This document shows positions 2,671 through 35,743 of a stretch of 36,077 nucleotides of DNA, piece by piece. The stretch comes from a virus, in IMG/VR virus record IMGVR_UViG_3300009158_000112, positions 1 to 36,077 of that record; one strand, written 5' to 3'. Below the pieces are notes generated by a model. The model did no database searches. It saw only the letters and a list, made by a program, of their open reading frames with translations, and was not told where the DNA came from. The translations under genes were made by a program, and so were the position numbers. Position 1 is the stretch's first letter, and each line of letters starts with the position of its first letter.

Positions 2671-2892
2671 CTACTTACCTGCTTTACCTCTTTCATATGC
2701 TTCTGAGATATGCCACATTATTTTCTGCTTCAACCAATCTTTTGTTTCTTTATTTATAATTTTGAGTTTTTCATCAAGTTCTTTAAATGTATCATCTACA
2801 ACAGAACCGTTTGTTTTACTCTCTATAACAACAGATATATTCAAGTTTTCTGTTGCTTCGTTGAAACTTTTTATGTGTCTTTTATCTTTCAT
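2671..2892 (-). CDS. Small hypothetical array protein (73 aa)
   Basis: 73 residues starting MKDKRHIKSFNEATENLNIS. The KSFNEATENL segment resembles the FxxF/E motif found at the N-termini of several virion proteins in this window, but here it may be coincidental. The rest is lysine-rich and helical (KIINKETKDWLKQKIMWHIS). The family is unknown. It is the last gene before full site G and is preceded by a weak half-site H. Confidence 0.6.
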   Translation of the reverse strand: MKDKRHIKSFNEATENLNISVVIESKTNGSVVDDTFKELDEKLKIINKETKDWLKQKIMWHISEAYERGKAGK

Positions 2893-9603: not shown

Positions 9604-9620
9604 GATAAATAAATTAAAAT
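9604..9620 (+). promoter_or_regulatory. Candidate late promoter motif
   Basis: GATAAATAAATTAAAAT lies 12 nt before the ATG of the first virion-block gene. It belongs to a recurring (G/A)ATAAATAATAAAA motif found in front of many genes here and resembles the T4 late promoter TATAAATA. Confidence 0.5.
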
Positions 9621-9631
9621 AAATCACTGAT

Positions 9632-10285
9632 ATGCCAGGAAGAGTTTTAAATTTCTCAGAATTTGCAGGTAAGTACTCTAGCGATGATGAAAAGACCCTA
9701 GATTCATTTACTCAATCCTCAAATAACTTCGAAGAAGGATTTGACAAAGAATCATATAACCAAAAACCAATTGGCCCAAATAAACCAGTAGAAGGAGGCA
9801 TTGAAATGACACCGCCTCAGCCTGGAGAAGTAGGATCACCTAAATTTACATCAGCAGTTGATGCTGGCATGAATGCACCAGAAGAAGTTGAAGCGCCTGC
9901 TGAAACTCCAGCTGAACCTACAGAAGAGGAAGAACCAGTAGAACAAGAAGAAACTGAAGAAGTAACTGAACCTGCAGAAGAGGAAGAATCAGAAGAGAAG
10001 AAAGAAGGAGAAGAAGTTCCTGAACCAGAAGCTGGTGCAAATCCTAAAAACGTTGAAGAATCGTATAGAGTTAAAAATTTCCGTGGATTCCTTAATGAAT
10101 CGCATAACGAATACTTATTCGACGATGATTGGAAAGAAGAGGCAGAGGAAGATGATTACAAATGTCCTACTTGCGGAGAAGAAGATTATACTTCAGATTT
10201 CGGAGAAGAATCAGATGATGAACATTGCCCAGACTGTGGTGCAGAATTCGACAAATTTGGAGCAACCTGCGGGTGCAATATGTAA
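9632..10285 (+). CDS. Acidic protein with two capsid-targeting-like motifs and a zinc ribbon (217 aa)
   Basis: 217 residues. The N-terminus RVLNFSEFAGKYSS has the FxEF motif seen in T4 capsid-targeting sequences. Residues about 60-138 are an extremely acidic E/P/A-rich segment, like scaffold or internal head proteins. A second copy, YRVKNFRGFLNES, occurs near residue 145. The C-terminus is acidic with a zinc ribbon (CPTCG about residue 178, CPDCG about 200, plus CGC). The layout suggests a virion or scaffold protein possibly cut by the head protease to release the C-terminal module. It is the first gene of the plus-strand cluster, with a late-type motif just upstream. Confidence 0.65.
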   Translation: MPGRVLNFSEFAGKYSSDDEKTLDSFTQSSNNFEEGFDKESYNQKPIGPNKPVEGGIEMTPPQPGEVGSPKFTSAVDAGMNAPEEVEAPAETPAEPTEEEEPVEQEETEEVTEPAEEEESEEKKEGEEVPEPEAGANPKNVEESYRVKNFRGFLNESHNEYLFDDDWKEEAEEDDYKCPTCGEEDYTSDFGEESDDEHCPDCGAEFDKFGATCGCNM

Positions 10286-10302
10286 AAATATATTTAGAAA
10301 AG

Positions 10303-10899
10303 GTGACAGATATAATTATCGCATTTTTATCGGGAGTAATTGGACCAGTGATAGTTGTCATGGTTAGTCATTATTTGACAAAACGAAAGAAACCGGATGT
10401 TTTAGTAGAGACAGTTAATAATGCGAACATTATTAATGATGAGATCGAACATGTACTTGAAGAGTATAAAGCAGATCGTATTTGGATTTTACAATTCCAT
10501 AATGGTGGACACTTCTATCCTACTGGAAAATCGATTCAAAAATTTAGTATGATCTACGAATTTGTTAGATTATCGAAAGATACAATTAGAGAAAACTTTC
10601 AAAATATTCCAGTAAATCTTTTTAGTAAAGCATTATCAAAGGTATTGAAGGATGACTATCTTGCAATAACTGACTATAAAGACGAAACTGTTGCAACTTG
10701 TGGTTTAAAATATCTTTCAGATGAATGTAGAACAAAAAGTTCATACTTCTTTGGAATCAGAAACTTCGAAAATCGTTTAATTGCAGTACTGGGAGTAGAA
10801 TATACTGATCGTAAGCGAGTATTAAATGCTGAAGAAATTGTGAAATTACGAGTATCTGCTGCTCAAATTAGCGGAGAATTAGCATCACATCTTAAATGA
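10303..10899 (+). CDS. Membrane-anchored GAF-like domain protein (198 aa)
   Basis: A GTG start at 10303 gives 198 residues: a single N-terminal membrane segment (TDIIIAFLSGVIGPVIVVMV), then KRKK, then a GAF-like domain (about residues 55-195) with DRIWILQFHNGGHFYPTGKS and a terminal SAAQISGELASHL helix. The open frame reaches back to 10225 without an ATG, and that part overlaps the upstream gene, so GTG is chosen. The domain is found in phage hypotheticals, sometimes with a membrane anchor; the ligand is unknown. Its TGA overlaps the ATG of the 51-residue gene. Confidence 0.65.
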   Translation: MTDIIIAFLSGVIGPVIVVMVSHYLTKRKKPDVLVETVNNANIINDEIEHVLEEYKADRIWILQFHNGGHFYPTGKSIQKFSMIYEFVRLSKDTIRENFQNIPVNLFSKALSKVLKDDYLAITDYKDETVATCGLKYLSDECRTKSSYFFGIRNFENRLIAVLGVEYTDRKRVLNAEEIVKLRVSAAQISGELASHLK

Positions 10900-11051
10900 A
10901 GAAACTAGTTGAAAACTATTTTGAATTTATACAGTCGGCTCAGATCGCCCAGAATCCCAACGCGTATACAATGTACAGCGCAAACCCACAAGGATTTACA
11001 CATTCTAGAGCACAAGCAATTGCACGATATGCACAAAAGTGCAAGGACTAA
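10896..11051 (+). CDS. Small protein with FxFI N-terminal motif (51 aa)
   Basis: A short gene in ATGA overlap with the GAF-like gene. The product starts MKKLVENYFEFIQSAQIAQN and continues to a basic C-terminus rich in A and Q (AQAIARYAQKCKD). YFEFIQSA closely fits the capsid-targeting-like motif of neighbouring products (compare SYQEFINEA). It overlaps the convergent gene at 11048-11299 by 4 nt. Probably a small internal virion protein. Gene calling with a 60-residue minimum would miss it. Confidence 0.6.
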   Translation: MKKLVENYFEFIQSAQIAQNPNAYTMYSANPQGFTHSRAQAIARYAQKCKD

Positions 11052-11299
11052 TCGTCGTCTTCGTCCAGCTCATCTAATCGCGTGGGAAAGATACTTATAC
11101 TGCTAATCTCCCAATTTAATAGAACATCATCCAAATCATCGTGAACTATCGAAAGAGTTTGAATCTCTTCACCGATTGTTTTATAGCTATGTGTTAGAAT
11201 TTTTTCTTTGATTTGTTCCAACTTTGATAAAATTGTCGTTTCTAATTCTTTACGAATTGCCTGCGACTTAACTATCAGTTCATCATTTATTTTTGCCAT
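11048..11299 (-). CDS. Small coiled-coil protein (83 aa), opposite strand
   Basis: 83 residues starting MAKINDELIVKSQAIRKELE; the first half is a heptad-like helix, the C-terminus is acidic (RLDELDEDDD). It is the only minus-strand gene inside the plus-strand virion block, and overlaps the preceding gene tail to tail by 4 nt. No family is recognised. Confidence 0.55.
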   Translation of the reverse strand: MAKINDELIVKSQAIRKELETTILSKLEQIKEKILTHSYKTIGEEIQTLSIVHDDLDDVLLNWEISSISIFPTRLDELDEDDD

Positions 11300-11379
11300 A
11301 CATTACTTTTATATTACGAAATATCGTTTGGTTTCTAAATAAATAAACTAAAGATCAAATCTTATTAAAATAACATAAC

Positions 11380-11838
11380 ATGAGAATGAAAAATTTTAAA
11401 AGCATTAGACGCCTCCTTGAGCAAGCAGCATTACCTGCAGCAATTGAGCCAAATGCAACGGCATCACTAGGACTTCAACCAGAAGCTCCAGAAACTCCAG
11501 AAATGCCAATCGATTATCCAGCACAACAGCTTGCGCTTCCAGCAGAAGGTCAAGCATCTGCTCCAGTTGATCCAATGACGATGACTGTTGGTGATTTCAT
11601 CAATAAATGTAAAGAGAATGATCCATTGGTAGCAATGGGAATTGAATCATATGTTGAAAAGAATCGTCATATGTTTGGCGGTCACACTGCACAACCTGCA
11701 CAAATGATGACTCAACCAGATCAGGATTTGACATTTTCCGCTGCAGTTGCTCCACAAGATGCACAAATTGCACCTCCTGCACCAGTACAACCATTTTCAT
11801 TAGATCAATCACAAGATTCTCTAAATTTTCCAGGATAA
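11380..11838 (+). CDS. Virion-type protein, Ala/Pro/Gln-rich, with N-terminal targeting-like motif (152 aa)
   Basis: 152 residues starting MRMKNFKSIRRLLEQAALPA; MKNFKSIRRLLEQA resembles the T4 capsid-targeting sequence with a possible E/A cleavage region. A low-complexity A/P/Q/E segment follows, then a small folded part (MTVGDFINKCKENDPLVAMG), then another A/P/Q-rich tail. ATGs at 11380 and 11386 are both possible. The composition fits an internal head or structural protein. A late-type AT motif (AAATAAATAAACTAAA) lies about 30 nt upstream. Confidence 0.6.
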   Translation: MRMKNFKSIRRLLEQAALPAAIEPNATASLGLQPEAPETPEMPIDYPAQQLALPAEGQASAPVDPMTMTVGDFINKCKENDPLVAMGIESYVEKNRHMFGGHTAQPAQMMTQPDQDLTFSAAVAPQDAQIAPPAPVQPFSLDQSQDSLNFPG

Positions 11839-11839
11839 A

Positions 11840-12121
11840 ATGATTAAGGGCTTTGTAAACTATATAGTTGAAGTAATGGGAACTGACTCAATGGAACGAG
11901 ATCCAGCAGATATTATTATGAGCCCCGATACAGAACGTGCAAGCGCAATGATGTTTTATGCAGGATCATCTGGGTCTATTCCAGCACAATGGAATAATTC
12001 ACCTTTCTTAAGCGGTGGAAGATTAACCAGCGCCTTCGGATTAAACCCAAAGACGGCTAAGAAGAAGAACGTATTATCATACCATGATTTTAGAAAAGCA
12101 GCAAAGCATTTTTCAAAATAA
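11840..12121 (+). CDS. Small virion-type protein (93 aa)
   Basis: 93 residues starting MIKGFVNYIVEVMGTDSMER. No known domain. The C-terminus NVLSYHDFRKAAKHFSK contains a SYHDF element much like the N-terminal SYQEF of the 12517 gene, so the motif may occur at either end. The ATG is 1 nt after the preceding stop, indicating coupling. Its TAA is part of the late-type motif at 12117-12132. Confidence 0.6.
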   Translation: MIKGFVNYIVEVMGTDSMERDPADIIMSPDTERASAMMFYAGSSGSIPAQWNNSPFLSGGRLTSAFGLNPKTAKKKNVLSYHDFRKAAKHFSK

Positions 12122-12132
12122 ATAATAAAAAT
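12117..12132 (+). promoter_or_regulatory. Candidate late promoter motif
   Basis: AATAAATAATAAAAAT, 10 nt before the ATG at 12143 and overlapping the stop codon of the upstream gene. It is an almost exact match to the motif at 29621, 35772 and, on the minus strand, 14958 and 18262. Confidence 0.55.
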
Positions 12133-12142
12133 ATACACTACA

Positions 12143-12517
12143 ATGGCAGCATCATATGTTTCAAGTTTTAAGAAGTTCATGAAAACAGCAGAAAAAGAAA
12201 CTGCTCCTGAATTGGAAGTCGGTGCAAATCCAGCAGTTGAAGAACAAGTAACTCCAGCAGCACCAGTCGCACCGCCAAATACTGCTCCAAAAGCAGATAT
12301 TCCAGTGGCTCCGCCAAGTATTGAAGCAAATCCTGCAGTAATTGCAACTCGACAAGCAGCAGCAGCAGCTATTGCAAACAGAGATAAAGTTATCTCTGAT
12401 AAACAAGCAGAACTTGATAAACTTAAAGCTGCACAGGACGCTTTAGTAAATACGGCAAACACTAACTTAAATAAAGCATTGCAAGATGCTGGAAAAGCAG
12501 CAAACCCAACAACATAA
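12143..12517 (+). CDS. Ala/Pro-rich virion-type protein with FxxF motif (124 aa)
   Basis: 124 residues starting MAASYVSSFKKFMKTAEKET. YVSSFKKFMKTAE matches the targeting-like motif and is close to the C-terminal VSSFSDFMQRK of the 34022 gene. An A/P-rich disordered region follows, then a coiled-coil helix (DKVISDKQAELDKLKAAQDA). ELEVGANPAVEE near residue 22 echoes PEAGANPKNVEE of the 9632 product and might be a processing site. The stop overlaps the next start by 1 nt. Confidence 0.6.
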   Translation: MAASYVSSFKKFMKTAEKETAPELEVGANPAVEEQVTPAAPVAPPNTAPKADIPVAPPSIEANPAVIATRQAAAAAIANRDKVISDKQAELDKLKAAQDALVNTANTNLNKALQDAGKAANPTT

Positions 12518-12963
12518 TGGAAAAACGAGTAAAGTCATATCAGGAATTCATCAATGAGGCAACAAAAGAAGTTGTTTACCCGACTAACTTTACTGGCATG
12601 GTACAGAGCGCTCTAGCTGGAGTCTATACGTCAGTAATGGCAATCGCACAGGAACTTGCAAATGAAAAAGCTGCTCGAAATCCTGGTAGATATACTGGAA
12701 CAATTGAGGATATTGATATTACCAGAGCTATGAATCTTATTTTTCATAGCGACTGGAAAAAGAAATTAAAACAAAAAGCACTTGGCCAAATGATGCATAA
12801 ATCAATGGAACGTGCAGGCAAGCAAGATGCAGTTATTGCAAAAAAGAACCAGCGAGCAATGGGTAGAATGCTAGGAGACAAAGGCTTTACAGTCGATGTC
12901 GACAAATCTAGTGTTAGATTCAGTGACGATGGATCAGGTGGCGGACCGGGATCAAATCAATAA
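12517..12963 (+). CDS. Virion-type protein with T4-like capsid-targeting N-terminus (148 aa)
   Basis: 148 residues starting MEKRVKSYQEFINEATKEVV. KSYQEFINEA is almost the same as the N-terminal capsid-targeting sequence I recall for T4 internal proteins (MKTYQEFIAEA), which is cut by prohead protease gp21. The remaining protein is basic and helical (KKKLKQKALGQMMHKSMERA) with a G/S/D-rich tail, fitting a DNA-associated internal head protein. It is part of a tightly packed run (1-nt overlap upstream, 7 nt to the next start). Confidence 0.65.
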   Translation: MEKRVKSYQEFINEATKEVVYPTNFTGMVQSALAGVYTSVMAIAQELANEKAARNPGRYTGTIEDIDITRAMNLIFHSDWKKKLKQKALGQMMHKSMERAGKQDAVIAKKNQRAMGRMLGDKGFTVDVDKSSVRFSDDGSGGGPGSNQ

Positions 12964-14144: not shown

Positions 14145-14957
14145 TTATAAACCTTTTGCCGTTAACCATGCTCGCATAGCTGCTGCCAGTGTAATATCTG
14201 CACTACTTGCAAGATTCGGCGCTGGCACAGGTGCTGGTGCAGGAACTGTATTTGGAAGCAATACGATAACATCTCCTTGCTGACTAAGCAAAGTACCCAG
14301 GTCAGTAAATGTTAAATAAAATCTTCCACTTAATCCCCAAGAAGTACCCCATGAATTATCGAACCAGACTCTTGAATTAGGAACATCAATTTGTCTAGCA
14401 ACAATTTCATGACCGCCGGCTAGAGAACCTGTTATTTTTACTCGACCGTCTCTGTCTGGAAAAGTCATTCCATTGTACCAATTAATACCAACAAGTATTG
14501 GATATTGTGTTAATGCAAGTAGAGCATCATTTAAAGTAAATGTGTGTTGATATCCAGATATAATACCAGCTGATTGCAATGCTTTTGCGATTGATAAACC
14601 AGTAGAGCCAAAGTCATTTGGCGGATATGGACCACTTCCATCAATTATTTCAGCATCTGAATAAAGTGCAAGTGCGCCTATTTGATTTAATGGATATTTG
14701 CTAACTTTAGGAAGCGTGTTAAATAATGGATCAGTTGCAAGTGCCCCGACTCCAGCATTACCTGTACAACTTCCAACATTTCCTTGATTTAATATGGAAA
14801 TATGTCTAGGATGTGTTACTGATGCAAGAGAGCGGCCTCGAGTATCAAAGGCAAAATTTCGAGACCTTGAATCATGATAAACATTTCTTTTAAGTCTAGG
14901 ATCAGTACTTGGAATTCGTTCCTTTACTATTATTATTTTATCCATTGTATTACTCAT
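14145..14957 (-). CDS. Papain-like (family C1) cysteine peptidase
   Basis: 270 residues. The catalytic set is complete: oxyanion-hole Q58 and nucleophile C64 in LNQGNVGSCTGNAG, H183 in LAGGHEIVARQ, and N201 in WFDNSWGTSWGLSGRFYL. There is no signal peptide. A Pro/Ala linker (PAPAPVPAP) leads to a short amphipathic C-terminal helix (ITLAAAMRAWLTAKG). The gene directly follows the portal gene on the same strand, where T4 carries genes 67, 68 and 21 (prohead protease). A role in capsid maturation or as a virion-borne protease is therefore attractive but unproven; degradation of host proteins or of the cell wall is an alternative. Confidence 0.85.
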   Translation of the reverse strand: MSNTMDKIIIVKERIPSTDPRLKRNVYHDSRSRNFAFDTRGRSLASVTHPRHISILNQGNVGSCTGNAGVGALATDPLFNTLPKVSKYPLNQIGALALYSDAEIIDGSGPYPPNDFGSTGLSIAKALQSAGIISGYQHTFTLNDALLALTQYPILVGINWYNGMTFPDRDGRVKITGSLAGGHEIVARQIDVPNSRVWFDNSWGTSWGLSGRFYLTFTDLGTLLSQQGDVIVLLPNTVPAPAPVPAPNLASSADITLAAAMRAWLTAKGL

Positions 14958-17915: not shown

Positions 17916-18248
17916 TTAATCTTCTAAGTGATCTGCAATAAATTGATCAGCTTCTTCTGGACCAATTTTACCAAGTTCAACCAATTTAACTATTAGCGCT
18001 GCGATTGCAAGTTTTTCAGGAACATCTTCTTCTGACATTTCAAGCTCGTTCTTTTCAAAAGCAGTAGTTAAGTCGTTAAATGCTGCTTCTGCTGCTTCTG
18101 CAACTTCTTCTTCAGAACCAACGAGTTCGACTAACGCATCTAACATAGTTTCATCAAGATTTAATTCATCAAGTACTGCAGCATCTGATGGATTATCTCC
18201 GCAGGTAGTGCAATTTGAGAATTCGTTAAGTGACATGATTCTTTTCAT
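17916..18248 (-). CDS. Acidic small protein with N-terminal targeting-like motif (110 aa)
   Basis: 110 residues starting MKRIMSLNEFSNCTTCGDNP. RIMSLNEF fits the FxEF-type motif, and a CTTC pair follows. The rest is highly acidic and helical (ELVGSEEEVAEAAEAAFNDL). It could be a head scaffold or internal protein; no family is recognised. A late-type motif lies 14 nt upstream and a strong terminator downstream, so it is probably transcribed alone. Confidence 0.65.
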   Translation of the reverse strand: MKRIMSLNEFSNCTTCGDNPSDAAVLDELNLDETMLDALVELVGSEEEVAEAAEAAFNDLTTAFEKNELEMSEEDVPEKLAIAALIVKLVELGKIGPEEADQFIADHLED

Positions 18249-18276: not shown

Positions 18277-19417
18277 AAACAAGCATCAGATCGAATGCAG
18301 AATTTGAAAAGTATTTATCCAGAAAGTCATTAAATGAGTCAAATGTTAATTCAGAATCGCGAATAAGTAAGAAGCGATATAGGTCATTAATATCTTTGAT
18401 TTCATCACGAATAATTTTAGCGGCAGTCGGGTAGGTTTTACGTAAATCATACATTATTTTACACCATAGAAATACAGTATACCCTTTCATTAACAATTCA
18501 AGGCTGTGTTGCTTTCCAGCTTTATCATTATCGAATAAGATTCGTGAGTTCTTCTTAGTTACTAGGCTTGCTAACAATTGTTTGCTTTTTGTTACGCCAG
18601 TTGTTGCTAAACAGTTTCGAACAAACATTGCATCAATTTGTCCCTCAGTGATTGTAATCATCTGAGTGAAATTGATGTTTAGGATATTGAAATAGTTATT
18701 GATTGAATTGACTTCAGTTATAAATTCGTCTTCTAAATCATTAAGTAGACCAGTCTTCTTAAAATCAGTGTAGTTTTTGATATTATATTTTGGTCCAGGA
18801 TAGTTATCATCAATGTATCGAATGGCAAAGCCAAGTACTCTACCTGATTTAAGGTCAAGATTAAAAAGATAGATTTTATCTTCTCTTGAATCATAATAAC
18901 AGCTTTGTTCAAATACTGGAAGTCGATTAATCTTTCGTTTATCAACAAATTTTCCAATTGGACTTTCAGGATCGGCTTCTGAACATGGACTAAGAGCAAA
19001 TCGACTAATTAGGTCACGAAAGACTAGAAGTTTCTGACCGACTTCTCGATTGATTAGAAATTCAATTAAAAATCCTCGTTTCTTTGTTGAGGTAGTCGGT
19101 TTGTATTCAAGTTTCTTGGCACTTACTCCAGGAACACCGAGCTGATATTTTTGTGCAAAATTAGATATAAACTTATCTAGCTTGATCCAAACAGAACAGC
19201 CATCATTGAAGCACTTATATGTTTGAGTAGATAGGTATAGATTTCCGCGTTTTTTATTTGGGTCACGTTCTGAGTCACCACAATAAGGACAAGCAAAATT
19301 AAGCTTATCATCATCGGTGTCATTTATCTGCTGGCGAATCTGATCTCCAGGAAAACGTTTTTTAAGAACGTCTTGACAAAATTCAGTTACAGAGTACGTC
19401 GTTTCCAATTTAAACAT
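18275..19417 (-). CDS. 61: DnaG-type DNA primase (gp61-like)
   Basis: 380 residues. The N-terminal zinc-binding domain has C43-x2-C46 in FACPYCGDSERDPNKKRG and a second pair in YKCFNDGCSVWI. The RNA polymerase/TOPRIM core follows: ITITEGQIDAMFVRN (E about residue 255) and SRILFDNDKAGKQHSL (DND about residue 295). It makes RNA primers at the replication fork together with the helicase. Its ATG overlaps the last codon of the polymerase fragment (19417), so polymerase and primase are probably translated together; T4 does not have this arrangement. Confidence 0.88.
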   Translation of the reverse strand: MFKLETTYSVTEFCQDVLKKRFPGDQIRQQINDTDDDKLNFACPYCGDSERDPNKKRGNLYLSTQTYKCFNDGCSVWIKLDKFISNFAQKYQLGVPGVSAKKLEYKPTTSTKKRGFLIEFLINREVGQKLLVFRDLISRFALSPCSEADPESPIGKFVDKRKINRLPVFEQSCYYDSREDKIYLFNLDLKSGRVLGFAIRYIDDNYPGPKYNIKNYTDFKKTGLLNDLEDEFITEVNSINNYFNILNINFTQMITITEGQIDAMFVRNCLATTGVTKSKQLLASLVTKKNSRILFDNDKAGKQHSLELLMKGYTVFLWCKIMYDLRKTYPTAAKIIRDEIKDINDLYRFLLIRDSELTFDSFNDFLDKYFSNSAFDLMLV

Positions 19418-20859
19418 TAGTCTTCAGTTGCGTCATCCTCTTCGAGTTTACTAAGAGCTACTGCTTTCTTTTTAGTTATGCGTTTGAGATATTTTTCAAG
19501 TTCAAACTTCGGAACAATTATCGAGTTTAAGCCATATTTTGTGATTATTGAAAGATATTCAGCAAAATCATTTTCTGGAATATCTGCATCCGGATTACCG
19601 ATAATTTTCCAGAATTTTTCTGGTACTTCAACATATTCTAATGTGTCCTGATCGACAACATATAGTGGATAAATTTGGTCATCGGTTAAAGGTTTCTTAC
19701 TCTTCACCGTAATTAGTTCAACGCTACGTTTAAGATTAGAATCAAGCGAACTCATCTTCATCGCTTCCAATAAACGATTTACTGGCTCGACAATTAGCGA
19801 AAAGAATTGAATATCACGATCAATCGGCGGTGCAAGCTCAGGTGGATAATTTTCAGGAGAATATGCGAACACATCAAAATTATGTTCATTTGACGCACAA
19901 TAATAAAATTTAATCTTATCGCCTTCGCGAATAGACGCATATTTCTTATTTAAACCTGTTTTAAGTAAGAGATAATTATAACAGGCAGCTGCTCTTGGAA
20001 AGATTGCGATACCTTTGCGCAACGATAACGTTTCAATGTTATCAACGTATTTATTATATACACGAATTCTAAAATTGAATGCGATATCATCGATTGGCAA
20101 CTCCATATATTCATCCTTGAGTGCTTGTAATTGAGGAACTAAGTCACGTTCGATATTTAGATTCTTACCAATTTCCATCACATACTCAGTAAGCACAGTC
20201 AATTTCTTTCTGGCCCAAATCGGATATGACCCTTTAACTGGTTCAAGACCCTTGATAATCAATTGTCGCTTTTCCTTTGGAATAAGTTCCATTGCTGGAT
20301 TTGGGTCGTACGCTACTTTAATTGCATAATTTTTCTTCTTCAACCAGATACCATATTCAGATAGATTTTCGAGCTTGAATTTAAGACGGTTCTTCGTATT
20401 AAATACTCTGCCATATTTTTCAAAGCAGGCATCAAAATAGTTAGAAAGTCGATGCTGATCAATTGCGACACATAATTTCAATGACTCATCTCGAGTTAAC
20501 GTGATGCCCTCTATTGAACTAAGTGCAGAATCAAATTGAACATATATCGAGTCAGTATCTGTATAGATCGCAGCCTCTTCTGTGACCTGATGAATAACAT
20601 ATTGATCGATACCTAACGTCTTGTGCAATTCAGTATCCAAGTGCCACTTTGCTTGAAAATAGTGATTTACTGCCTTAATACTAAACTTAATTAGGTCCTG
20701 ACCTTGTAAAGTAATCGATTGGGCAATATCCGGATTATAAAAGTAGAACCACTTATTTCCAAATGCACCATATATACTGTTGATCAAGATCTTTATTGCA
20801 TTTTGCTTAAGATCAAGTTTTTTAATTTGTCGTGTCGTATCTTCCATATGTAATATCAT
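19417..20859 (-). CDS. 43: Family B DNA polymerase, C-terminal half (split gp43)
   Basis: 480 residues corresponding to about the last 350-400 residues of T4 gp43 with extra length. Motif B is at the very start (KILINSIYGAFGN, residues 23-35) and motif C follows (IYTDTDSIYVQF, with D101 and D103). The 3'-5' exonuclease domain and motif A (D-x2-SLYP) are absent and are not encoded anywhere else in the window, so the protein needs a partner made from a distant gene. The break falls between motifs A and B in the fingers. An endonuclease gene lies 70 nt from its start on the other strand. Confidence 0.88.
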   Translation of the reverse strand: MILHMEDTTRQIKKLDLKQNAIKILINSIYGAFGNKWFYFYNPDIAQSITLQGQDLIKFSIKAVNHYFQAKWHLDTELHKTLGIDQYVIHQVTEEAAIYTDTDSIYVQFDSALSSIEGITLTRDESLKLCVAIDQHRLSNYFDACFEKYGRVFNTKNRLKFKLENLSEYGIWLKKKNYAIKVAYDPNPAMELIPKEKRQLIIKGLEPVKGSYPIWARKKLTVLTEYVMEIGKNLNIERDLVPQLQALKDEYMELPIDDIAFNFRIRVYNKYVDNIETLSLRKGIAIFPRAAACYNYLLLKTGLNKKYASIREGDKIKFYYCASNEHNFDVFAYSPENYPPELAPPIDRDIQFFSLIVEPVNRLLEAMKMSSLDSNLKRSVELITVKSKKPLTDDQIYPLYVVDQDTLEYVEVPEKFWKIIGNPDADIPENDFAEYLSIITKYGLNSIIVPKFELEKYLKRITKKKAVALSKLEEDDATED

Positions 20860-24365: not shown

Positions 24366-24658
24366 AGCATATTTATAAATTTAAGCTCAATGAGTTTCAC
24401 CCTGGTGCAGATTCTATTTCGAATACTATTAATAGATTCATAGGATACGGAGAGGCTAATGGAACCTCTTTAGAAATAACAAGGGAGGCAATTAGTCTTT
24501 TACTAAATTATTATGGTAATCAGGAAATAGAGCCGGAAGTAATACGAGGATCTGAACTACACACTGCTCTACTAAATATTGAGAACTGTATTAATACTTT
24601 ACAGGATGATGGATATCCAGAAAACTGGATATATAAAGAGTTACGAAAGTTTGCATAA
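24362..24658 (+). CDS. Small hypothetical protein with MKHIYKF N-terminus (98 aa)
   Basis: 98 residues starting MKHIYKFKLNEFHPGADSIS. The first residues parallel the upstream MKHIRKFILES, suggesting a shared targeting motif or gene duplication of the 5' end. The remainder is helical (TREAISLLLNYYGNQEIEPE). The ATG at 24362 overlaps the preceding TGA; an earlier in-frame start at 24332 lies inside the previous gene. It overlaps the convergent uvsW C-part by 18 nt. Confidence 0.6.
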   Translation: MKHIYKFKLNEFHPGADSISNTINRFIGYGEANGTSLEITREAISLLLNYYGNQEIEPEVIRGSELHTALLNIENCINTLQDDGYPENWIYKELRKFA

Positions 24659-24977
24659 GTCTACTTCTTGTTTTGAAATTTTAAATTCTTGGTCCTTATA
24701 TACTTCTTCTCTCTTTTCTGCGTGTTTAACCATGTAACCATCGAGTTGATCTACTAGATCCCAAACAATTACTTCATTCTTTTCAGCAAGTTTACGCATG
24801 CCTCTGCCGATAGACTGACGAATCGTTATTTCAGCTTTAGTAGACTCTGCAAATATAATATGGTGAACATTTTTTAAATCAATTCCAGTAGAAAATGTTC
24901 CGTTCTCAATAGGAGGCAACTATAATAGTTGCCTCCGCTTTGCCCTCCATTATTTGTATTGACGTTGGTTTTGCCAT
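24641..24977 (-). pseudogene. uvsW: UvsW helicase, C-terminal part, frame-broken
   Basis: Two frames together encode the end of UvsW. The ATG at 24977 gives MAKPTSIQIMEGKAEATIIV then ASY and TGA (24906-24908). The continuation GTFSTGIDLKNVHHIIFAES, then IRQSIGRGMRK (motif VI) and VIVWDLVDQLDGY, lies in the other frame, with 7 extra bases between TAT (Y) and GGA (G) relative to the usual ASYGTFSTG. A TTG at about 24919 could start the second frame. The part follows the HNH gene by 2 nt. Possible explanations are a real lesion, programmed bypassing over the nearby hairpin, or a sequence error. Confidence 0.7.
24912..24936. repeat. Perfect 12-bp inverted repeat in uvsW just before the frame break
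   Basis: GGAGGCAACTAT and ATAGTTGCCTCC flank a single base. In RNA this would be a very stable hairpin covering the codons for EATIIVAS, ending directly before the TAT-TGA stop in the first frame. Confidence 0.8.
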
Positions 24978-24979
24978 AT

Positions 24980-25945
24980 TTAATTTATTTTTTTAAATGT
25001 CCACCCTAGTGTATTTTGTACTTGTTTATTTTTTAAATATTTTGAAATTACTGATTTTCCGGAATTAGTAAATTTTCGAACAAGAGAAGGAGAAAAATCA
25101 AACTCTTTTATCATTTCGATAACACCGGTTCGATAATAAATTTCACCATTTGGAGAAATAATTTCAAGTTTTTGCAAATACTTTTTTCGAGATTTCATTT
25201 TCTCTCTAAATTCAGAATTACTCCATTTATCTTTTAATTTTGAGCTTATTTTCTTTTTAACGTCAGGTGTATTTAAACAATTACGTATTTTTTCTTTAAA
25301 CTTTTCTCTTTCAATATTTGATAAATTTTCCCAATATTTTTTATTGCGCTCCGATATTTTTCCAGGATTATTTTTTATCCATTCTGAAATTTTTTTCGAG
25401 TGACACCGTCGTCTTTCTTCTGTCCATGAGTTTTTAGCGCTATTACAAAAATTCAAATATTTTGATTCATCTGATCTGATTGATTTCCATGCAGCAACTC
25501 CTCTCTTCTTATGCTCATCTGGAGTTGCATTATTCATATTATTACGTTTAGCTTCTTTAAATTTTTCAAATTTTTCGTAATTTGATTTTAATTTTTTCCA
25601 TCCATTTTTTGTAGCAAGCGACAATAATTCTTTGTTTTTAGTTAATGGACTTTTCATAAAATTTAAAGTTTTCTGATTTTGTCTAGTCGGATATGCTCTA
25701 AATAATCGTTCATGAGCAGTAATATGGTCAGTATATTTTAGATTTACGATATTCCATTCACAATTTATAAATTCAATAAATGTTGAACGCGGTAGAATGT
25801 GGTGTTTTTCACAATATACTTCAGAATCTGCTGGAGAGACTTTTTCTAAGACAAATGAAATATAATTAATTAGATCATCCTTTGAATACGGATCTCCACA
25901 TTTTTCTATAAATAACTCAAAAATTTTTTGTTTTTCAGAAGGCAT
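24980..25945 (-). CDS. HNH homing endonuclease inserted in uvsW
   Basis: 321 residues. The HNH core is near the N-terminus: CEKHHILPRSTF (H48, H49), then CEWNIVNLKYTDHITAHERL (N and H of the motif, about residues 60-80). A long lysine-rich middle (several KKxxEW/KxKW segments, typical of DNA-contacting repeats) follows. The C-terminus has a NUMOD/IENR-like DNA-binding unit (SPNGEIYYRTGVIEMIKEFD...GKSVI...GWTFKK). It lies exactly between the two uvsW parts on the same strand, with its own start and a late-type motif upstream. It probably cuts the uninterrupted uvsW gene. Confidence 0.85.
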   Translation of the reverse strand: MPSEKQKIFELFIEKCGDPYSKDDLINYISFVLEKVSPADSEVYCEKHHILPRSTFIEFINCEWNIVNLKYTDHITAHERLFRAYPTRQNQKTLNFMKSPLTKNKELLSLATKNGWKKLKSNYEKFEKFKEAKRNNMNNATPDEHKKRGVAAWKSIRSDESKYLNFCNSAKNSWTEERRRCHSKKISEWIKNNPGKISERNKKYWENLSNIEREKFKEKIRNCLNTPDVKKKISSKLKDKWSNSEFREKMKSRKKYLQKLEIISPNGEIYYRTGVIEMIKEFDFSPSLVRKFTNSGKSVISKYLKNKQVQNTLGWTFKKIN

Positions 25946-25961
25946 ATTAGACTGGTATAGA

Positions 25962-25976
25962 TTTTAATTATTTATC
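25962..25976 (-). promoter_or_regulatory. Candidate late promoter motif before the HNH gene
   Basis: On the minus strand GATAAATAATTAAAA overlaps the stop of the uvsW N-part and ends about 17 nt before the endonuclease ATG, so the endonuclease may have its own promoter. Confidence 0.45.
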
Positions 25977-27408
25977 TATTTGTATTCTTTAAAATCCAAG
26001 AATCTAGTATATCATCATCCTGAGCTATGTCTCTAGCTTTTTTTAATGTTCCATTAGTTAATGGAACATCAGTATTTGAATTGATTTGTATTTTTAAGTC
26101 ATTAAATGTAAATTCTATAAGATAATTTATTTCTTCCATTGTGGCTTTAAATACGTCTCTATCTGAAGACCCTACTTCCCCATCTATGTAAAAAGTGTTT
26201 GAGTTCCACTCTAATAGTTTATGTTGGATCTTTTTACCGTATTCGTTCTTAACGTCTGAAAAAAGAATAAGAGTATTTTTACCGAAACTTTTGACTAGAT
26301 CATTAATATAATTGAGTCTCTCTTTGCTTTCAAAAATAAAACCCTTTTCGATAGCTAGCATGTCTCGGCCATAGTCTTTTGCATCTTTATACATCGCTCG
26401 GCCATCCTTCTTTAATGCCCAATACTTTTGCAGATATTCATCAGCTCTATTATATTGGAGTTTGACAATTTGAATTTCAATATTTGGAGAATATCCATGG
26501 TCAATTAAGTGCTTTGCTGAAAGAATCATCACTAGTGGGCCAACATTTTCCTGAACCCTAAAGAAATCAGAAAACTGCTCTTCAATTTTCACAGTTCCTG
26601 AAAGACCGAGTCGATATTTCCATTCAGTACAATTAATTAATATCTCTCGAATAACGTTGCCACGGCTCTTATGTGTTTCATCGACACATACTGTAATAAA
26701 CTTTTTAAATATTGCAGGATCTAGGTTTTGTAAACTTTGATATGTTGAAATAACTATCTCGGCATTATCGAAATCTTTTTGATTAAATCGATCGTCTCCA
26801 CCAATTGTGCATATTTTCCATGGAGCTCGGCCAACTGCATATAATTCAAATTTTTCAGCAGTCTGACCGACTAATGAGATATTAGGAACAATAAGTAGTG
26901 ATTTATGTATTGCGTCTACTTTCTTAGCATCGCGTAAAAATGAATTAAAGATATAGAAAATAAGAGTTTTACCAGAAGAGGTTGCAAGTTCCTGTGTACA
27001 GAACTTATATTTAATAGCACGATATGCTCCTTCGATTTGGTAATCTCTAGGAACAATCGGAAGTCCTTTTTCATCGACTACTCCAGTCAATAGGCGAGTT
27101 ACGTACTTTAGATATTTATCGTGGTCGAGTCCGAGACTTAACATTTCGTCAATTCCTTCAATTTGACAATCATATCCATATCGATTTGCAAAATTATAGA
27201 TTTCTTTCCAAAGACCGACTGCGATAAGTCCATCCTTTGTGATAAATGGATCAAGCCCATCCCAAATACCACGTTCTACTAAAACATTGAATGCTGCTTT
27301 TTTGGATTTACGTTTGAAGAATTTGAATAAGTCACTGCGCTCTGAATTTAAACTAAAATCAACTAGCTTAATAAATTTTTTATCTGGAGTAAGAGAAAAG
27401 AGTAACAA
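25972..27408 (-). CDS. uvsW: UvsW-type superfamily 2 helicase, N-terminal part with foreign tail
   Basis: 478 residues. Residues about 1-424 match T4 UvsW: the N-terminal domain, PRDYQ, Walker A ATSSGKTLI (about 141-149), VDETHKSRG (motif II, about 238), GLSGTV (motif III), and NTLILFSDV of the second RecA domain, ending SSDRDVFKATMEE. The last 54 residues are not UvsW. LIEFTFNDLKIQINSN, VPLTNGTLKKARDIAQDDDI follow the pattern of intein block B without the N-terminal Cys or block-B His. The start is a TTG (27408); no in-frame ATG exists before the upstream stop. UvsW unwinds branched DNA and R-loops; whether the pieces work together is unknown. Confidence 0.85.
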   Translation of the reverse strand: MLLFSLTPDKKFIKLVDFSLNSERSDLFKFFKRKSKKAAFNVLVERGIWDGLDPFITKDGLIAVGLWKEIYNFANRYGYDCQIEGIDEMLSLGLDHDKYLKYVTRLLTGVVDEKGLPIVPRDYQIEGAYRAIKYKFCTQELATSSGKTLIFYIFNSFLRDAKKVDAIHKSLLIVPNISLVGQTAEKFELYAVGRAPWKICTIGGDDRFNQKDFDNAEIVISTYQSLQNLDPAIFKKFITVCVDETHKSRGNVIREILINCTEWKYRLGLSGTVKIEEQFSDFFRVQENVGPLVMILSAKHLIDHGYSPNIEIQIVKLQYNRADEYLQKYWALKKDGRAMYKDAKDYGRDMLAIEKGFIFESKERLNYINDLVKSFGKNTLILFSDVKNEYGKKIQHKLLEWNSNTFYIDGEVGSSDRDVFKATMEEINYLIEFTFNDLKIQINSNTDVPLTNGTLKKARDIAQDDDILDSWILKNTNR

Positions 27409-29646: not shown

Positions 29647-30216
29647 ATGGCAAAAGAAATTAAGCCCTTCCTACAGTACATTAAAGAAGAAGAGGAGCAA
29701 ACTGGCAATGTTGAGCGTCCGCTAAAAGGATATACCGCAGATCAAATAATCAATCGAATTTCTGAATTGATGGAAATATTAGCAGATGATGTTCGTTTTG
29801 GTGTTCCTTCCGATACATTAGGTAGAGCAACTACTTATCGTGATGCAAATGGAGCGATTCAAAAGATTAAAGATATGCAACACTATTACGAAAGTAAAGG
29901 TGAAGATGTTAGATTCTATTGTTGGTCAATTAGTTATAACGGTAGCTGGAAAGCAACGACTAACTTAAAGAAAAAGATCGAAGAAGCTGGTGGATTCGGT
30001 GAAGAAAAGTTAAATATGAATTTGAAAAAAATAATTGACTATTTTACGCAAAATGCAGAAGACTCAGATAATATTAGAAGCATTTCAATTAGTATGGATG
30101 CCGCAAGTATTAGAAAAGCATTAAATAAACAAGCGGACGCAGATGAAGATTCTGGAAAAGACCAGCCATCTGAAAAAGCAGAAGAAAAAACCGACGAAAC
30201 ATCAGCGAACCAATAA
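29647..30216 (+). CDS. Hypothetical protein, targeting-like N-terminus (189 aa)
   Basis: 189 residues starting MAKEIKPFLQYIKEEEEQTG, a variant of the N-terminal motif. A folded middle (about 25-150) has TADQIINRISELMEILADDV and YYESKGEDVRFYCWSISYNG; the last 35 residues are acidic and disordered. No family is recognised. It lies between the kinase and the ligase-type gene, 2 nt from the latter, with a late-type motif in front. Confidence 0.6.
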   Translation: MAKEIKPFLQYIKEEEEQTGNVERPLKGYTADQIINRISELMEILADDVRFGVPSDTLGRATTYRDANGAIQKIKDMQHYYESKGEDVRFYCWSISYNGSWKATTNLKKKIEEAGGFGEEKLNMNLKKIIDYFTQNAEDSDNIRSISISMDAASIRKALNKQADADEDSGKDQPSEKAEEKTDETSANQ

Positions 30217-30218
30217 TT

Positions 30219-32150
30219 ATGGCAGGAATCAATAATTTAAAGGAAGTATACGAAAAAAGAGGTGAAGAATTTTTAACAAGTCTTCTCAATAGCTACGTCA
30301 TAATTAATGAAAAAGTAGACGGCACTTTCTTTGGAGTAAAGAAGAACAAGGACGATAAGTTTAGATACTTTAAGAAGTCTGGAGAGATTAGCTATGTTGA
30401 CCGAGTACTGATGAAATATTACAATACTGCGATTTCGCATTTTGAAAATCTTTCAGAAGATAAGAGACAGCGAATCCCATCTAATTTCTATTTTGGATTT
30501 GAGTATTTTACAAATGGCGATAATTTAAGCCATAAATATGACCGTCTTCCAAAAAATAACCTAGTTTTGTCCTACATTCATAAATTAGACGATGCCGGCA
30601 AAGTAATTTCAACTGTTCAGAATAAAGAGCAACTTGACAAGTGGGCAGATTATTTAGGTGTAGAACGCGCACCGATTATTTTTGAAGGAAATTTAACAGA
30701 TGAGCAAAAAACTGCAATTTTAGAATTTGTTTATGCACCATCTGAAGAGCTCTTCACTAAATTTAAAACACGTTCATTTACGAAATATATTATTTCGATT
30801 CTTAACGACCAACAAGAATCATCTTTTTTAAAGACTGATTTAACTGGTAGTGTCGATACAATAGTCTTTAGATTCTACGATGAATCGAAGGACGATTCTG
30901 ACGCAAGCGTCTTTTTAGCGAAGATAGTCGACCCAATATTTAATCACACTAAAACAACGCAGCCTAAAGAAAATAAATCGCAAGATTATATTTGGTTGAT
31001 TGTAATCGACTTGATGAATTTCTTTGAAATGTATGATATTTCTGAATTAGAAACAATGTGTGAAAAGGGGACTACCTTTGATGAGAAATATGTTGCACTA
31101 ATTAATGCAATGTTCAAAGATTTTATTAAAGAATATTCTGGAAAATATGAGGGACTTAGGTTAGAAGTTCCAGACTATCTAAAACGTCCTGAATTTGAAT
31201 TAGATGCAGCATTAATAAATGATCCAGAAATAATCAAATTACTTAAAGATGAAACGTATACTGAGATCTATAAAATTCTGCTGAATTTCTTTAGACGTAA
31301 TAGAAAGAGTTCATCATCTGGTTTCTTTACAGCTGACCTGCTAACTCAGCTTAACCTGATCGTTACTAAGATTAGAAAAATTATCATGGGCGATCAAGTA
31401 TATGAAAGTCTATTCCCAAGTTTCAGTGAATTTATTGGAACGCAAACCGATGAATCTATCCTTAGTGAAAGAGAAGTAGCTGAAGGTAAGCATAAAAAAC
31501 CAGAAGCAGTCTCAGTTAACCTATTGATTGGAAATTTTCAACCAGTAACAATGGGTCATATTAAAGCTGCTCAGAAATTAAAAGCAAAAAATGGAAATAA
31601 AGTCGTTTTCGTTGCGCTTAAATCAGAAGAACAAAATCAGAAATCTCCATTCTCAATGAAGGAGACTAGAATAATGCTTGAAAAAGTTCAACAGGAATAT
31701 CCTGAGTTAATTGCAGATGTTAGACTAATTGCATCTGGACAGATCGAAGAAATCCTTGGATCAATTCAACCAATATACACACCAACTCTTTGGGGAACAT
31801 CAGAACGTCGACTTAAAGATTATGTCTTACAATTAGACTATATTAAGAAGAAGAGTATTCCATTGCGCTTAGAAAAAGAATTCAAATTAGTAGAATTACC
31901 AAGTTTTGTAAAATCAGATGAAGTTATTGATTCACTTATGAGATCAGATTTCACTGAGTTTAAAAAACTAGTACCAACCTCAATCGCGTCCGAATTTTTT
32001 AATTTACAGAAAGAACTTAAAACTGATGTACGAGAAGAAGAAATTAAACCTGTTTCTAAATTTAGTGCAATTTTTGAAGGTGAAGAAGTAACTGCCGAAG
32101 TAATCGACCCGAAACTAAAAGAGGAGGATGATGACAAGAACACCATTTAA
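30219..32150 (+). CDS. Fusion of a nucleic-acid-ligase-like domain and a cytidylyltransferase/NMNAT-like domain
   Basis: 643 residues. The N-terminal ligase-like adenylation domain has motif I IINEKVDGTFFGVKK (lysine K32), motif III FYFGFEYF (about residue 90), motif IV VDTIVFRF (about 213) and motif V AKIVDP (about 238). A helical middle of about 180 residues contains FPSFSEFIGTQ, like the targeting motif (about residue 400). The C-terminal nucleotidyltransferase has LLIGNFQPVTMGHIKAAQKL (TxGH, about 434-453) and TLWGTSERRLKD. The second domain may adenylylate NMN or transfer CMP; the first would join ends or act on NAD/ATP. The disordered tail is acidic. Confidence 0.75.
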   Translation: MAGINNLKEVYEKRGEEFLTSLLNSYVIINEKVDGTFFGVKKNKDDKFRYFKKSGEISYVDRVLMKYYNTAISHFENLSEDKRQRIPSNFYFGFEYFTNGDNLSHKYDRLPKNNLVLSYIHKLDDAGKVISTVQNKEQLDKWADYLGVERAPIIFEGNLTDEQKTAILEFVYAPSEELFTKFKTRSFTKYIISILNDQQESSFLKTDLTGSVDTIVFRFYDESKDDSDASVFLAKIVDPIFNHTKTTQPKENKSQDYIWLIVIDLMNFFEMYDISELETMCEKGTTFDEKYVALINAMFKDFIKEYSGKYEGLRLEVPDYLKRPEFELDAALINDPEIIKLLKDETYTEIYKILLNFFRRNRKSSSSGFFTADLLTQLNLIVTKIRKIIMGDQVYESLFPSFSEFIGTQTDESILSEREVAEGKHKKPEAVSVNLLIGNFQPVTMGHIKAAQKLKAKNGNKVVFVALKSEEQNQKSPFSMKETRIMLEKVQQEYPELIADVRLIASGQIEEILGSIQPIYTPTLWGTSERRLKDYVLQLDYIKKKSIPLRLEKEFKLVELPSFVKSDEVIDSLMRSDFTEFKKLVPTSIASEFFNLQKELKTDVREEEIKPVSKFSAIFEGEEVTAEVIDPKLKEEDDDKNTI

Positions 32151-33976: not shown

Positions 33977-33993
33977 TCGCCTTTCTTTTTTTT
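33962..33993 (+). terminator. Rho-independent terminator
   Basis: AAAGGCG (33962-33968) pairs with CGCCTTT (33978-33984), followed by a C and eight T. It overlaps the end of the 33782-33976 gene and closes the end-repair-type gene group. Confidence 0.9.
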
Positions 33994-34009
33994 GATAAAT
34001 AATCAAAAT
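33994..34009 (+). promoter_or_regulatory. Candidate late promoter motif
   Basis: GATAAATAATCAAAAT directly follows the terminator and ends 12 nt before the ATG at 34022. This position, between a terminator and a gene, is the best single case for the motif being a promoter. Confidence 0.6.
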
Positions 34010-34021
34010 ACTCCAGCAAAA

Positions 34022-35743
34022 ATGGGATTTTCTCAATATTTATATAAGGCTCTAATGAAGAACAGAGCAATCTACGAAGACTCAGTAGCAGCTTCGCCAG
34101 TAATCGACTTCAATTCAATTAAAAATCAGATTGAAGCAAATGTCGGTGGTGATATTGATAGCAAAGAAGCTATTGAAACATCATTTGAAGGACTTGAGAA
34201 AGCGTTTGATACTGTTCCTTTAGACTATTTAGAAAAGAATACAAACGCTCATCTGGAGGAATTCTTTATACTTGTAGTTGACGGTAAACGTATTGATTTC
34301 TTAAATAAATTCGCAGAACGAGAAAAAACGGCTGCTGAGAATATTGTTAAATCACTATCATCGATTGATCGCGATCGTGATCAGATGAAATTTATCTCTC
34401 TACTTAAATCATATACAACTGTGACTGAGAGACTCTTAAAAATATACAGATTACTTACTGGGCAAACTGAGACAACAAATGAATCTGTAACCATTGAACC
34501 TGAAATCAAGACAAAAATCGATAAGATTGTCGTAACTTGTAAATCTGGAGCAACTGCTGATTTTGACAAGTTAATATCAGCAGAAGGTAAAGTCATTGAT
34601 GATATTCCAGAAAATAGTGAAGGTGCTGATAAATTTTTTCGATATAAAGACCTAATGGATTTTCTTGGACTTGCAGCATTCTTAAAAGATAAGATGGGCG
34701 CAAAAGAAAAGAAGATTGATGCAGTTGAAAAAAAAGAAAGCGTAAGTACTAAGAGAAAGAAGCGTATTATAGATAGTCGACTAATTAAAGGTATTCAATA
34801 TGCCAAATTACCAGCAATATCAAGTGATATTATTGAAACGAATGGTGATCTGTTCAAAATGTTCAAAACTCTTGAAAAAAAGAATTTGCCATGGATGACT
34901 CTTGCACTTGAACGATATGTATTTAAGGGAGATGCTGCCAGAGCGAAAGAATTTGATTCAAATGGTCGAGTTGCAGAAAGTCCAAAGGAAGAAGATCAGC
35001 TTACATATCTAATGGCCAATAATTCATGGTCACTAAGCTATATCAAAGGAGTGGTAGACGGAGAATTAGCAGAAAAGGAAGAAACTAATTATATTGCGCG
35101 TCTGGCAACAGTTACTACAGAAAAAGAAAAGGAGATTAAGAACTATTATCTTTCTAGAGATTTTAATCTTGGTAATTTTAGCGGAATTCAATTAAAACCA
35201 GAAATACGCCTACCTTTACACGTTAAAGTACCTCTTCCAGTAACTGATGCTGATCGCAAGAAGGAAAGCCCGCTTAGAAATGTACTTAAAGGTCTAGGCC
35301 AAATTATTTCTGGCATGGTTAGTGCTATTCCAGATAAAGGAAATGAACAAACTGCCCAAATTGCACGTAAAAGAAATATTGCAGTGTTTAATGGAATTAA
35401 CTCAATTGTTCGAGGAACCGTAGGTGCAGTTGGCGGTAAGCAAGCAGGTAGAGATTATGCGGAAAAGACAGAAAATATCGTGCCTAGCAGTAATAAGAAA
35501 CATATTAAAGAAGATATGGTCGGATTAGGCGATGCTGGAGGAGCAATTGTAAATCCAGAATCGCCAGGACAAACAATGCAAACTCCAGGAAGTCTGGCTG
35601 GCGACATGGACACATTTTCACTTCTTGGTCCAGGCAGAAAGTTGACACCTAAGAAGGCAACTAAAAAGAAGAAAAAGAAGTCGACTAAGCCTGTGGTAAA
35701 TAGTAGAGTTTCGAGTTTTTCAGATTTTATGCAACGTAAGTAA
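34022..35743 (+). CDS. Large virion-type protein with C-terminal FxxF motif (573 aa)
   Basis: 573 residues starting MGFSQYLYKALMKNRAIYED; an upstream TTG (33992) overlaps the T-run of the terminator and is rejected. The first 380 residues are helical and charged. A glycine-rich, partly hydrophobic stretch follows (about 430-480: LGQIISGMVSAIPD, INSIVRGTVGAVGG), then a Lys-rich segment and the terminal SRVSSFSDFMQRK, which copies the FxxF motif otherwise at N-termini. No family is recognised; it could be a structural, internal or tail-associated protein. Confidence 0.65.
   Translation: MGFSQYLYKALMKNRAIYEDSVAASPVIDFNSIKNQIEANVGGDIDSKEAIETSFEGLEKAFDTVPLDYLEKNTNAHLEEFFILVVDGKRIDFLNKFAEREKTAAENIVKSLSSIDRDRDQMKFISLLKSYTTVTERLLKIYRLLTGQTETTNESVTIEPEIKTKIDKIVVTCKSGATADFDKLISAEGKVIDDIPENSEGADKFFRYKDLMDFLGLAAFLKDKMGAKEKKIDAVEKKESVSTKRKKRIIDSRLIKGIQYAKLPAISSDIIETNGDLFKMFKTLEKKNLPWMTLALERYVFKGDAARAKEFDSNGRVAESPKEEDQLTYLMANNSWSLSYIKGVVDGELAEKEETNYIARLATVTTEKEKEIKNYYLSRDFNLGNFSGIQLKPEIRLPLHVKVPLPVTDADRKKESPLRNVLKGLGQIISGMVSAIPDKGNEQTAQIARKRNIAVFNGINSIVRGTVGAVGGKQAGRDYAEKTENIVPSSNKKHIKEDMVGLGDAGGAIVNPESPGQTMQTPGSLAGDMDTFSLLGPGRKLTPKKATKKKKKKSTKPVVNSRVSSFSDFMQRK

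Follow-up and report, generated by a model that had tools for sequence, protein, structure and literature searches.

In phage T4, the internal proteins carry a short N-terminal capsid targeting sequence (CTS), of the form MKTYQEFIAE/A, which directs them into the prohead (here and below, a slash marks a cut site, known or possible). According to the mutagenesis described for T4, residues 4 and 7 of this sequence serve mainly targeting and residues 8 and 10 processing, and D10 stops processing and leaves targeting unaffected; gp21 is described as cutting after L/I-X-E, and the internal proteins as co-purifying with gp22 (PMC9026906). IPI is described as inhibiting a restriction enzyme and IPIII as needed to infect a particular strain (PMC3012670, PMC9391042), and a review of the T4 head calls the way in which proteins enter the core mysterious (PMC9958956). 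Here we analysed a 36,077-nucleotide (nt) DNA fragment of a large, uncultured T4-like virus, IMG/VR record IMGVR_UViG_3300009158_000112, positions 1 to 36,077, referred to as the window, for which 53 proteins were counted, together with its relatives, referred to as the clade. A block of window genes between positions 9632 and 12963 encodes proteins that share a T4-like tag, which we read, with a probability of about 0.84, as part of an expanded T4-type capsid-targeting system whose presumed outcomes are packaging, cutting and injection. At the level of sequence, this reading is supported by a shared tag, the position of the tag, a cut-site pattern, a protease and scaffold in the relatives and a late-promoter-like element.

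The clade resembles T4 in the aromatic spacing of the IPI/IPII/IPIII tag, the hydrophobic-x-E cut site, the gp21-family protease and the scaffold core; however, T4 has three named internal proteins with N-terminal tags only, whereas clade records have many N-terminal tags each as well as tags at C-termini and probably inside proteins, and their protease is fused to a scaffold with tag-like repeats. The strictly N-terminal placement of the classical CTS is departed from by conserved C-terminal tags (families of the window genes 11840 and 33992, named by their first position) and by internal tags (9632 family), and the system was therefore classed as a CTS variant and not as the classical T4 form. 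What appears to be new is the large expansion of T4's system, in which either end of a protein, and probably its interior, may carry the tag. Three further systems are comparable. T4 Alt is described as a head protein processed at both ends by gp21 (PMC9026906), as we propose for doubly tagged clade proteins, although its N-terminus, MMELITELFDED as called, lacks the two aromatics. In phage P1, an N-terminal signal directs DarB into the capsid (PMC9024508), but P1 apparently has no separate scaffold, and it was compared with the clade by description only. The ejection proteins of SPN3US and other phiKZ-type phages likewise comprise many cargoes, some cut after glutamate by a homologous prohead protease; they differ in having mostly long propeptides (more than 100 residues for several), in the SPN3US cut motif AxE, and in that no widely shared short tag is described in that source (PMC5694885). 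In the open-licence literature we found no C-terminal or genome-wide use of a CTS in such phages, most subscription literature lying outside that search.

A shared tag on unrelated proteins

With the window's portal protein as query, relatives were found at 76 loci, and open reading frames (ORFs) called in stretches from eleven of the larger relatives' records yielded 1816 clade proteins in 783 families. In its extended form the tag reads [R/M]-[IV]-x-[ST]-[FY]-x-[EQ]-F-[IV]-N-E-[AS]. In a scan that held families out, 33 of the 777 unrelated families reached at least 14 bits, where 0.2 were expected, and there were 38 matches of at least 12 bits against an expected 1.4; 30 of these 38 lie in the first 21 positions, where a uniform distribution would place 5.2. 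The seven records counted have about 8-18 N-terminal tags each, and the tag is conserved in relatives while the rest of the carrier proteins diverges. Pfam searches with 30 representatives (of 47 families) put a name to few tagged carriers, most being nameless; those named include Nudix (3e-14), peptidoglycan-binding (4.8e-7) and DUF3008 (4e-7) proteins, a protein with a cytidylyltransferase-like (3e-7) and an RNA-ligase-like (7e-6, just under the cut-off) domain, and one with a cyanophycin-synthase-like N-terminal domain (8e-44), which in record G002 is joined to an 11840-type protein. Matches in conserved housekeeping proteins (topoisomerase gp39-like, putatively PhoH-like, S1-domain, primase-like (18275) and calcineurin-like) are internal and unbracketed and were taken as chance.

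The T4 targeting sequence given in the preliminary description of the window is correct: ipII and ipIII of AF158101 begin MKTYQEFIAEA. When the clade profile, learned only from uncultured phages and without T4 training, was allowed an N-terminal overhang (padding columns scoring zero), ipII and ipIII took the top two places among 1261 T4 ORFs, in that order. Without padding both are missed among the T4 ORFs, because the T4 tag begins one column later, and IPI (MKTFKEFTSTT) lies outside the top rows of the padded scan. Third in that scan was gp61.1 (gene 61.1, L122 18966-19130), a possible unrecognised T4 head protein whose start, MKTFKEFIKED, contains the four key residues of the CTS. T4 residues 4 and 7 correspond to clade columns 5 and 8, and residues 8 and 10 to columns 9 and 11. 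At 15 bits or more the clade profile matched four proteins in T4 (0.1 expected), one in P-SSM2 (0.1) and 11 in the 462-kilobase (kb) phage LR756500 (0.4).

Proposed targeting core, possible cut site and scaffold

A profile of columns 1-9 is blind to the cut site. With it, and with entries counted one per family and place, the 783 families gave 44 N-terminal, 9 C-terminal and 10 internal entries. Glutamate stands at column 11 in 27 of the 44 N-tag families (P = 5e-20), in none of the nine C-tag families (Fisher, N-tag versus C-tag, 7e-4) and in 4 of the 10 internal ones. The pattern [ILVMF]xE occurs at most 12 residues after the core in 38/44 N-tag families versus 176/695 untagged N-termini (P = 4e-16), and in 1/9 C-tag and 5/10 internal families; four doubtful C-class families (204, 298, 326 and 517) were kept in these two counts and dropped from those of the upstream element below. 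These numbers point to a gp21-like cut pattern directly behind N-terminal tags, at which cutting would presumably take place. In the 11840 family, 35 of 36 relatives have the C-terminal tag and none of the 36 the cut glutamate. Of the 13 rows of the 33992 cluster, 12 show a tag-like C-terminal core by eye, and one of these 12, in G007, has E at column 11. The separation of targeting and cutting columns seen in these natural sequences agrees with the T4 mutagenesis. In record G010 (50136-51331, corresponding to L220 14136-15331), two similar proteins end LFE/GKILDYKSFK and MFE/SKILDFKSFK: each has a tag-like core at its C-terminus, preceded by a possible cut site.

The S77 (gp21-family) protease was found in 10 of 13 relatives' records; it is 655-659 residues long in three sequences and, where placed, lies directly upstream of the major capsid protein. 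This gp21-like protease is fused to a scaffold (L116 17662-19629 and relatives): behind the protease part, 11 tandem 14-residue repeats of consensus SINYSEYLAEKLNQ are present in 23 of 23 aligned sequences, and the protease-scaffold proteins rank highest for 14-residue periodicity when 1038 proteins of 250 residues or more are compared. The tag matches the scaffold repeat in a single register (P = 0.0018 by permutation when 12 columns are used, and 0.015 with columns 1-9, without the cut columns; an earlier register test on four sequences gave P = 0.006). A similar repeat array is found in LR756500, and none was seen by eye in phages pT24 and PAU. The repeats may form one long helix, in a model whose mean predicted local distance difference test score (pLDDT) is 52.5. 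We give roughly even odds to the suggestion that docking of the tag works through mimicry of the 14-residue scaffold repeat.

A late-promoter-like element accompanies the tagged genes. The late promoter of T4 is TATAAATA. A family was counted as having the element when TAAATAA lies within 80 nt upstream in at least half of its members, which is so for 27/44 N-tag families and 2/3 further C-tag families, versus 0/15 early-type T4-core families and 121/719 others (N-tag families, P = 2.7e-10 versus the others and 1.5e-5 versus early-type). For N-tag genes, the distance between TAAATAA and the called start is 20-30 nt for 84 of 100 copies, and a gp55-like protein was detected in two records. This promoter-like element suggests that the tagged genes may be under late, head-gene-like expression.

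A T4-like CTS on otherwise unrelated proteins, cut by a gp21-like protease, had been the central proposal of the preliminary description, and it gains support from the profile equivalence with T4, the downstream cut site, the protease of the relatives and the late-promoter-like elements. In the mechanism we propose, proteins bearing [R/M]-[IV]-x-[ST]-[FY]-x-[EQ]-F-[IV] would be drawn, late in infection, into the assembling scaffold core by way of the two aromatics; the scaffold-fused gp21-family protease would then cut after hydrophobic-x-E, just behind N-terminal tags, at times ahead of C-terminal ones and, for some internal tags, on both sides; and the freed proteins would remain in the head with the DNA and probably be delivered into the host.

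The strongest rival, which we consider improbable, is that the motif serves only as an extended site for recognition by the prohead protease, with no role of its own in targeting, the proteins reaching the head or its surface otherwise. N-terminal tags do nearly always stand before a cut site, and the scaffold repeats and T4 gp23 (FGSFLTEA) likewise show aromatic-x-x-aromatic-hydrophobic-x-E. However, the C-terminal tags retain the RVxSFxxF core without the cut glutamate, the one member in G007 excepted; the cut site is several residues off in some N-terminal tags; and in T4 the aromatics are described as serving targeting, while D10 stops cutting and not targeting (PMC9026906). Still less probable is an assembly or tail-attachment signal, or an address to another late structure such as the membrane or baseplate, instead of the head interior. 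Neck- and baseplate-like genes do adjoin the window block and the carriers are of many kinds, but the tag is equivalent by profile to those of the T4 internal proteins, prohead-protease sites adjoin it, and its carriers are scattered genome-wide, beyond the surroundings of tail genes. Chance likeness, or common ancestry of carriers as paralogues with diverged bodies, can practically be set aside: a few carriers do share an identical start (G006 88900 and 89348, MIKSFKQWINET), so that recent copying of starts occurs, but the held-out families contradict chance, the named carriers are diverse, and the same core is found at the N-terminus, at the C-terminus and inside proteins.

Several points weigh against an expanded targeting system as we read it. 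The gene calls were made within the analysis, and some starts are possibly misplaced. A first profile drew both its training and its scoring from a single set of 841 proteins (the window plus four records), where it gave 83 matches versus 2.0 expected and, with a single representative per family, 41/505 versus a shuffle mean of 0.25; as this was circular, the scan was redone with families held out. In the held-out scan C-terminal matches show no excess (2 versus 2.7 if uniform), and these tags depend on conservation within families; four of the nine C-class families, the doubtful ones named above, look like chance, and probably some C- and internal-class rows are chance. Hydrophobic-x-E followed by a small or polar residue stands before the C-terminal tag in only 4/9 families and before the internal tag in 3/10 (background 0.145), so that cut sites in front of these tags are suggestive only. 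The S77 protease was not seen within the 36-kb window, a fragment, and lies outside it. At 15 bits or more the clade profile shows no excess in PAU (0 versus 0.2 expected) or pT24 (1 versus 0.4). Finally, the preliminary description had held that an equal frequency in replication proteins would speak against targeting; none of 25 T4-core families is tagged, so that no such equality was seen and the count leans towards targeting, although with about 1.8 expected it is not significant alone.

The tagged block of the window

For the window, an independent 9-column profile was trained on 36 tags from families without a window member, and shuffle P values were obtained from 400 shuffles (floor 0.002). 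The seven strings first noticed are all present, in plus-strand ORFs at 9632, 10896, 11380, 11840, 12143 and 12517, two of them within the 9632 protein. Bare [FY]xxF occurs 63 times in the window versus 50.5 ± 6.7 in shuffles, close to background, and in 29 of 53 proteins, and was ruled out as a signal. As a single motif the strings hold for 9632 (two copies), 11840 (N- and C-terminal) and 12517 (P = 0.002 each), more weakly for 12143 (P = 0.007) and 10896 (P = 0.012), and fail for MKNFKSIRRLLEQA of 11380, ruled out as a tag at 1.8 bits. The tagged genes had also been called consecutive, in a block. Untagged ORFs at 10225-10899 (plus strand) and 11048-11299 (minus strand) interrupt the series, and copies beyond the block lie at 33992 (C-terminus) and 30219 (internal), with weaker ones at 2671 and 17916. 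Scores of at least 12 bits are reached by 3 of 7 block proteins versus 2 of 46 others, one of the latter (1415, internal) being taken as chance.

The first tagged gene (9632-10285, plus strand) encodes 217 residues, with an N-terminal tag, RVLNFSEF (9641-9667), conserved in relatives, an acidic linker, a second tag present in most relatives and a Cys-rich C-terminal part. The second tag, RVKNFRGFLNES (10067-10102, 12.9 bits), lies between possible cut sites, VEE/S before and NE/S after. Gene 10896 (10896-11051, plus) encodes 51 residues with the N-terminal variant LVENYFEFIQSA (10905-10940), and [LI]VE[NS][FY]xEF is conserved in most of its relatives. The 152-residue product of 11380-11838 (plus) has a short N-terminal start with a possible cut site, RLLE/Q; many of its relatives begin like MRIKRLYEADD, which again is short, lacks FxxF and may hold a cut site. 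It is followed by a 93-residue protein tagged at both ends (11840-12121, plus), with MIKGFVNYIVEV (11840-11875) and NVLSYHDFRKAA (12068-12103), and by a 124-residue protein (12143-12517, plus) with N-terminal tag YVSSFKKFMKTA (12155-12190), which is conserved although the protein bodies differ among relatives. The most T4-like tag, RVKSYQEFINE/A (12526-12561), belongs to the 148-residue protein at 12517-12963 (plus), which matches a PHROG internal head protein (E = 0.049); in 27 aligned relatives, E14 is invariant and conservation of Y8 and of F11 is 90% or more. Late-promoter-like sequences precede 9632 (GATAAATAAATT, 9604-9615, plus) and 12143 (AATAAATAATAAA, 12117-12129, plus). Elements of the ATAAATAA type lie upstream of 9632, 12143 and 29647, are common to many tagged and structural clade genes and are nearly missing before early-type genes. 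The DNA of the block has no near match among named phages, and its neighbours include a head-tail adaptor PHROG and a baseplate wedge PHROG.

Outside the block, the 643-residue RNA-ligase-like and cytidylyltransferase-like protein at 30219-32150 (plus) has an internal tag, LFPSFSEFIGTQ (31410-31445), between its domains; it scores weakly with the independent profile (9.0 bits, P = 0.092) and is preceded by VYE/S, with YE[SG] before the tag in 5/5 family members. A C-terminal tag, RVSSFSDFMQRK (35705-35740, P = 0.002), ends the 583-residue protein at 33992-35743 (plus). N-terminal tags or variants are found in a 189-residue protein at 29647-30216 (plus; EIKPFLQYIKEE, weak, P = 0.035), a 110-residue protein at 17916-18248 (minus; RIMSLNEFS, 8.2 bits, P = 0.005) and a 73-residue protein at 2671-2892 (minus; HIKSFNEA, 8.9 bits, P = 0.002).

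In the AlphaFold model of the 12517 protein (mean pLDDT 71.9) the body is helical, while the tag is predicted poorly. Among the matches listed by Foldseek and VIA-align nearly all are histone folds (Foldseek E at least 0.77; Z up to 6.6, a middling value that may be common for helical proteins in general). Neither profile comparison (not significant) nor a sequence search of the PDB (no match) supported a histone identity, and PF00808 had no match in three records, which says little. A class of phage histones has been described (PMC11390915), and a histone-like body of 12517 is, on the model, a lead only. Three side observations concern other window genes. A uvsW-like helicase at 24641-27408 is apparently in two parts, 25972-27408 and 24641-24919, with an ORF between them that by eye resembles a homing endonuclease, whereas in G006 the helicase is a single ORF; a group I intron there was rejected, as Rfam gave no match in the window. 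The gp43-like DNA polymerase at 19417-20859 is about half-length, and two gp43-like families far apart in relatives suggest a split polymerase. A putative papain-like cysteine protease, recognised by eye (GSCTGNA, GGHE, NSWG; 14145-14957), adjoins the portal gene.

Tags in other phage lineages

A profile-free search of N-termini was performed with residue classes (aromatic residues written f, aliphatic i, acidic e, basic k and N/Q/H n); each ratio is an upper estimate, as it is the best of many patterns tried. The pattern i..f.ef occurs in 38/686 N-termini of LR756500 versus 1.8 in shuffles, k.i...fe in 22/295 of PAU (0.5) and i..fi.e in 15/296 of pT24 (2.5), where it is not the top row. In clade records, i..f..fi occurs in 16/217 N-termini of G002 (0.5) and 11/257 of G001 (1.2), and f..fi.e in 15/232 of G004 (0.8). 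T4 and P-SSM2 N-termini also show enriched patterns, some of other kinds. A pattern designed for PAU lists 17 starts of the type MKTISKLYEA, many of them close to its portal and protease genes. The cultured phages PAU and pT24 carry what look like tag versions of their own. In Sphingomonas phage PAU (L155 and L126; about 100-121 kb of the record) a run of small genes starting MKT[IL]xxL[YF]E[AS] lies around the portal and protease genes.

A wider picture remains tentative, and we hold it somewhat less likely than its opposite: the tag would be one scaffold-repeat unit, so that cargo enters the head posing as scaffold; each large T4-related lineage would have evolved its own code (F-x-x-F here and in the 462-kb phage, MKT[IL]xxL[YF]E in PAU, IxxYLxE in pT24), with several per cent of the proteome tagged; and bracketed tags between two domains would turn one polyprotein into two cargoes.

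For large and huge phages, little of the cargo that enters the host alongside the DNA is known. If an expanded targeting system of this kind is true, a readable tag would make delivered, possibly anti-defence, proteins predictable from sequence in any large T4-related genome, and the likeness of the tag to the scaffold repeat would offer a testable answer to how proteins reach the core.

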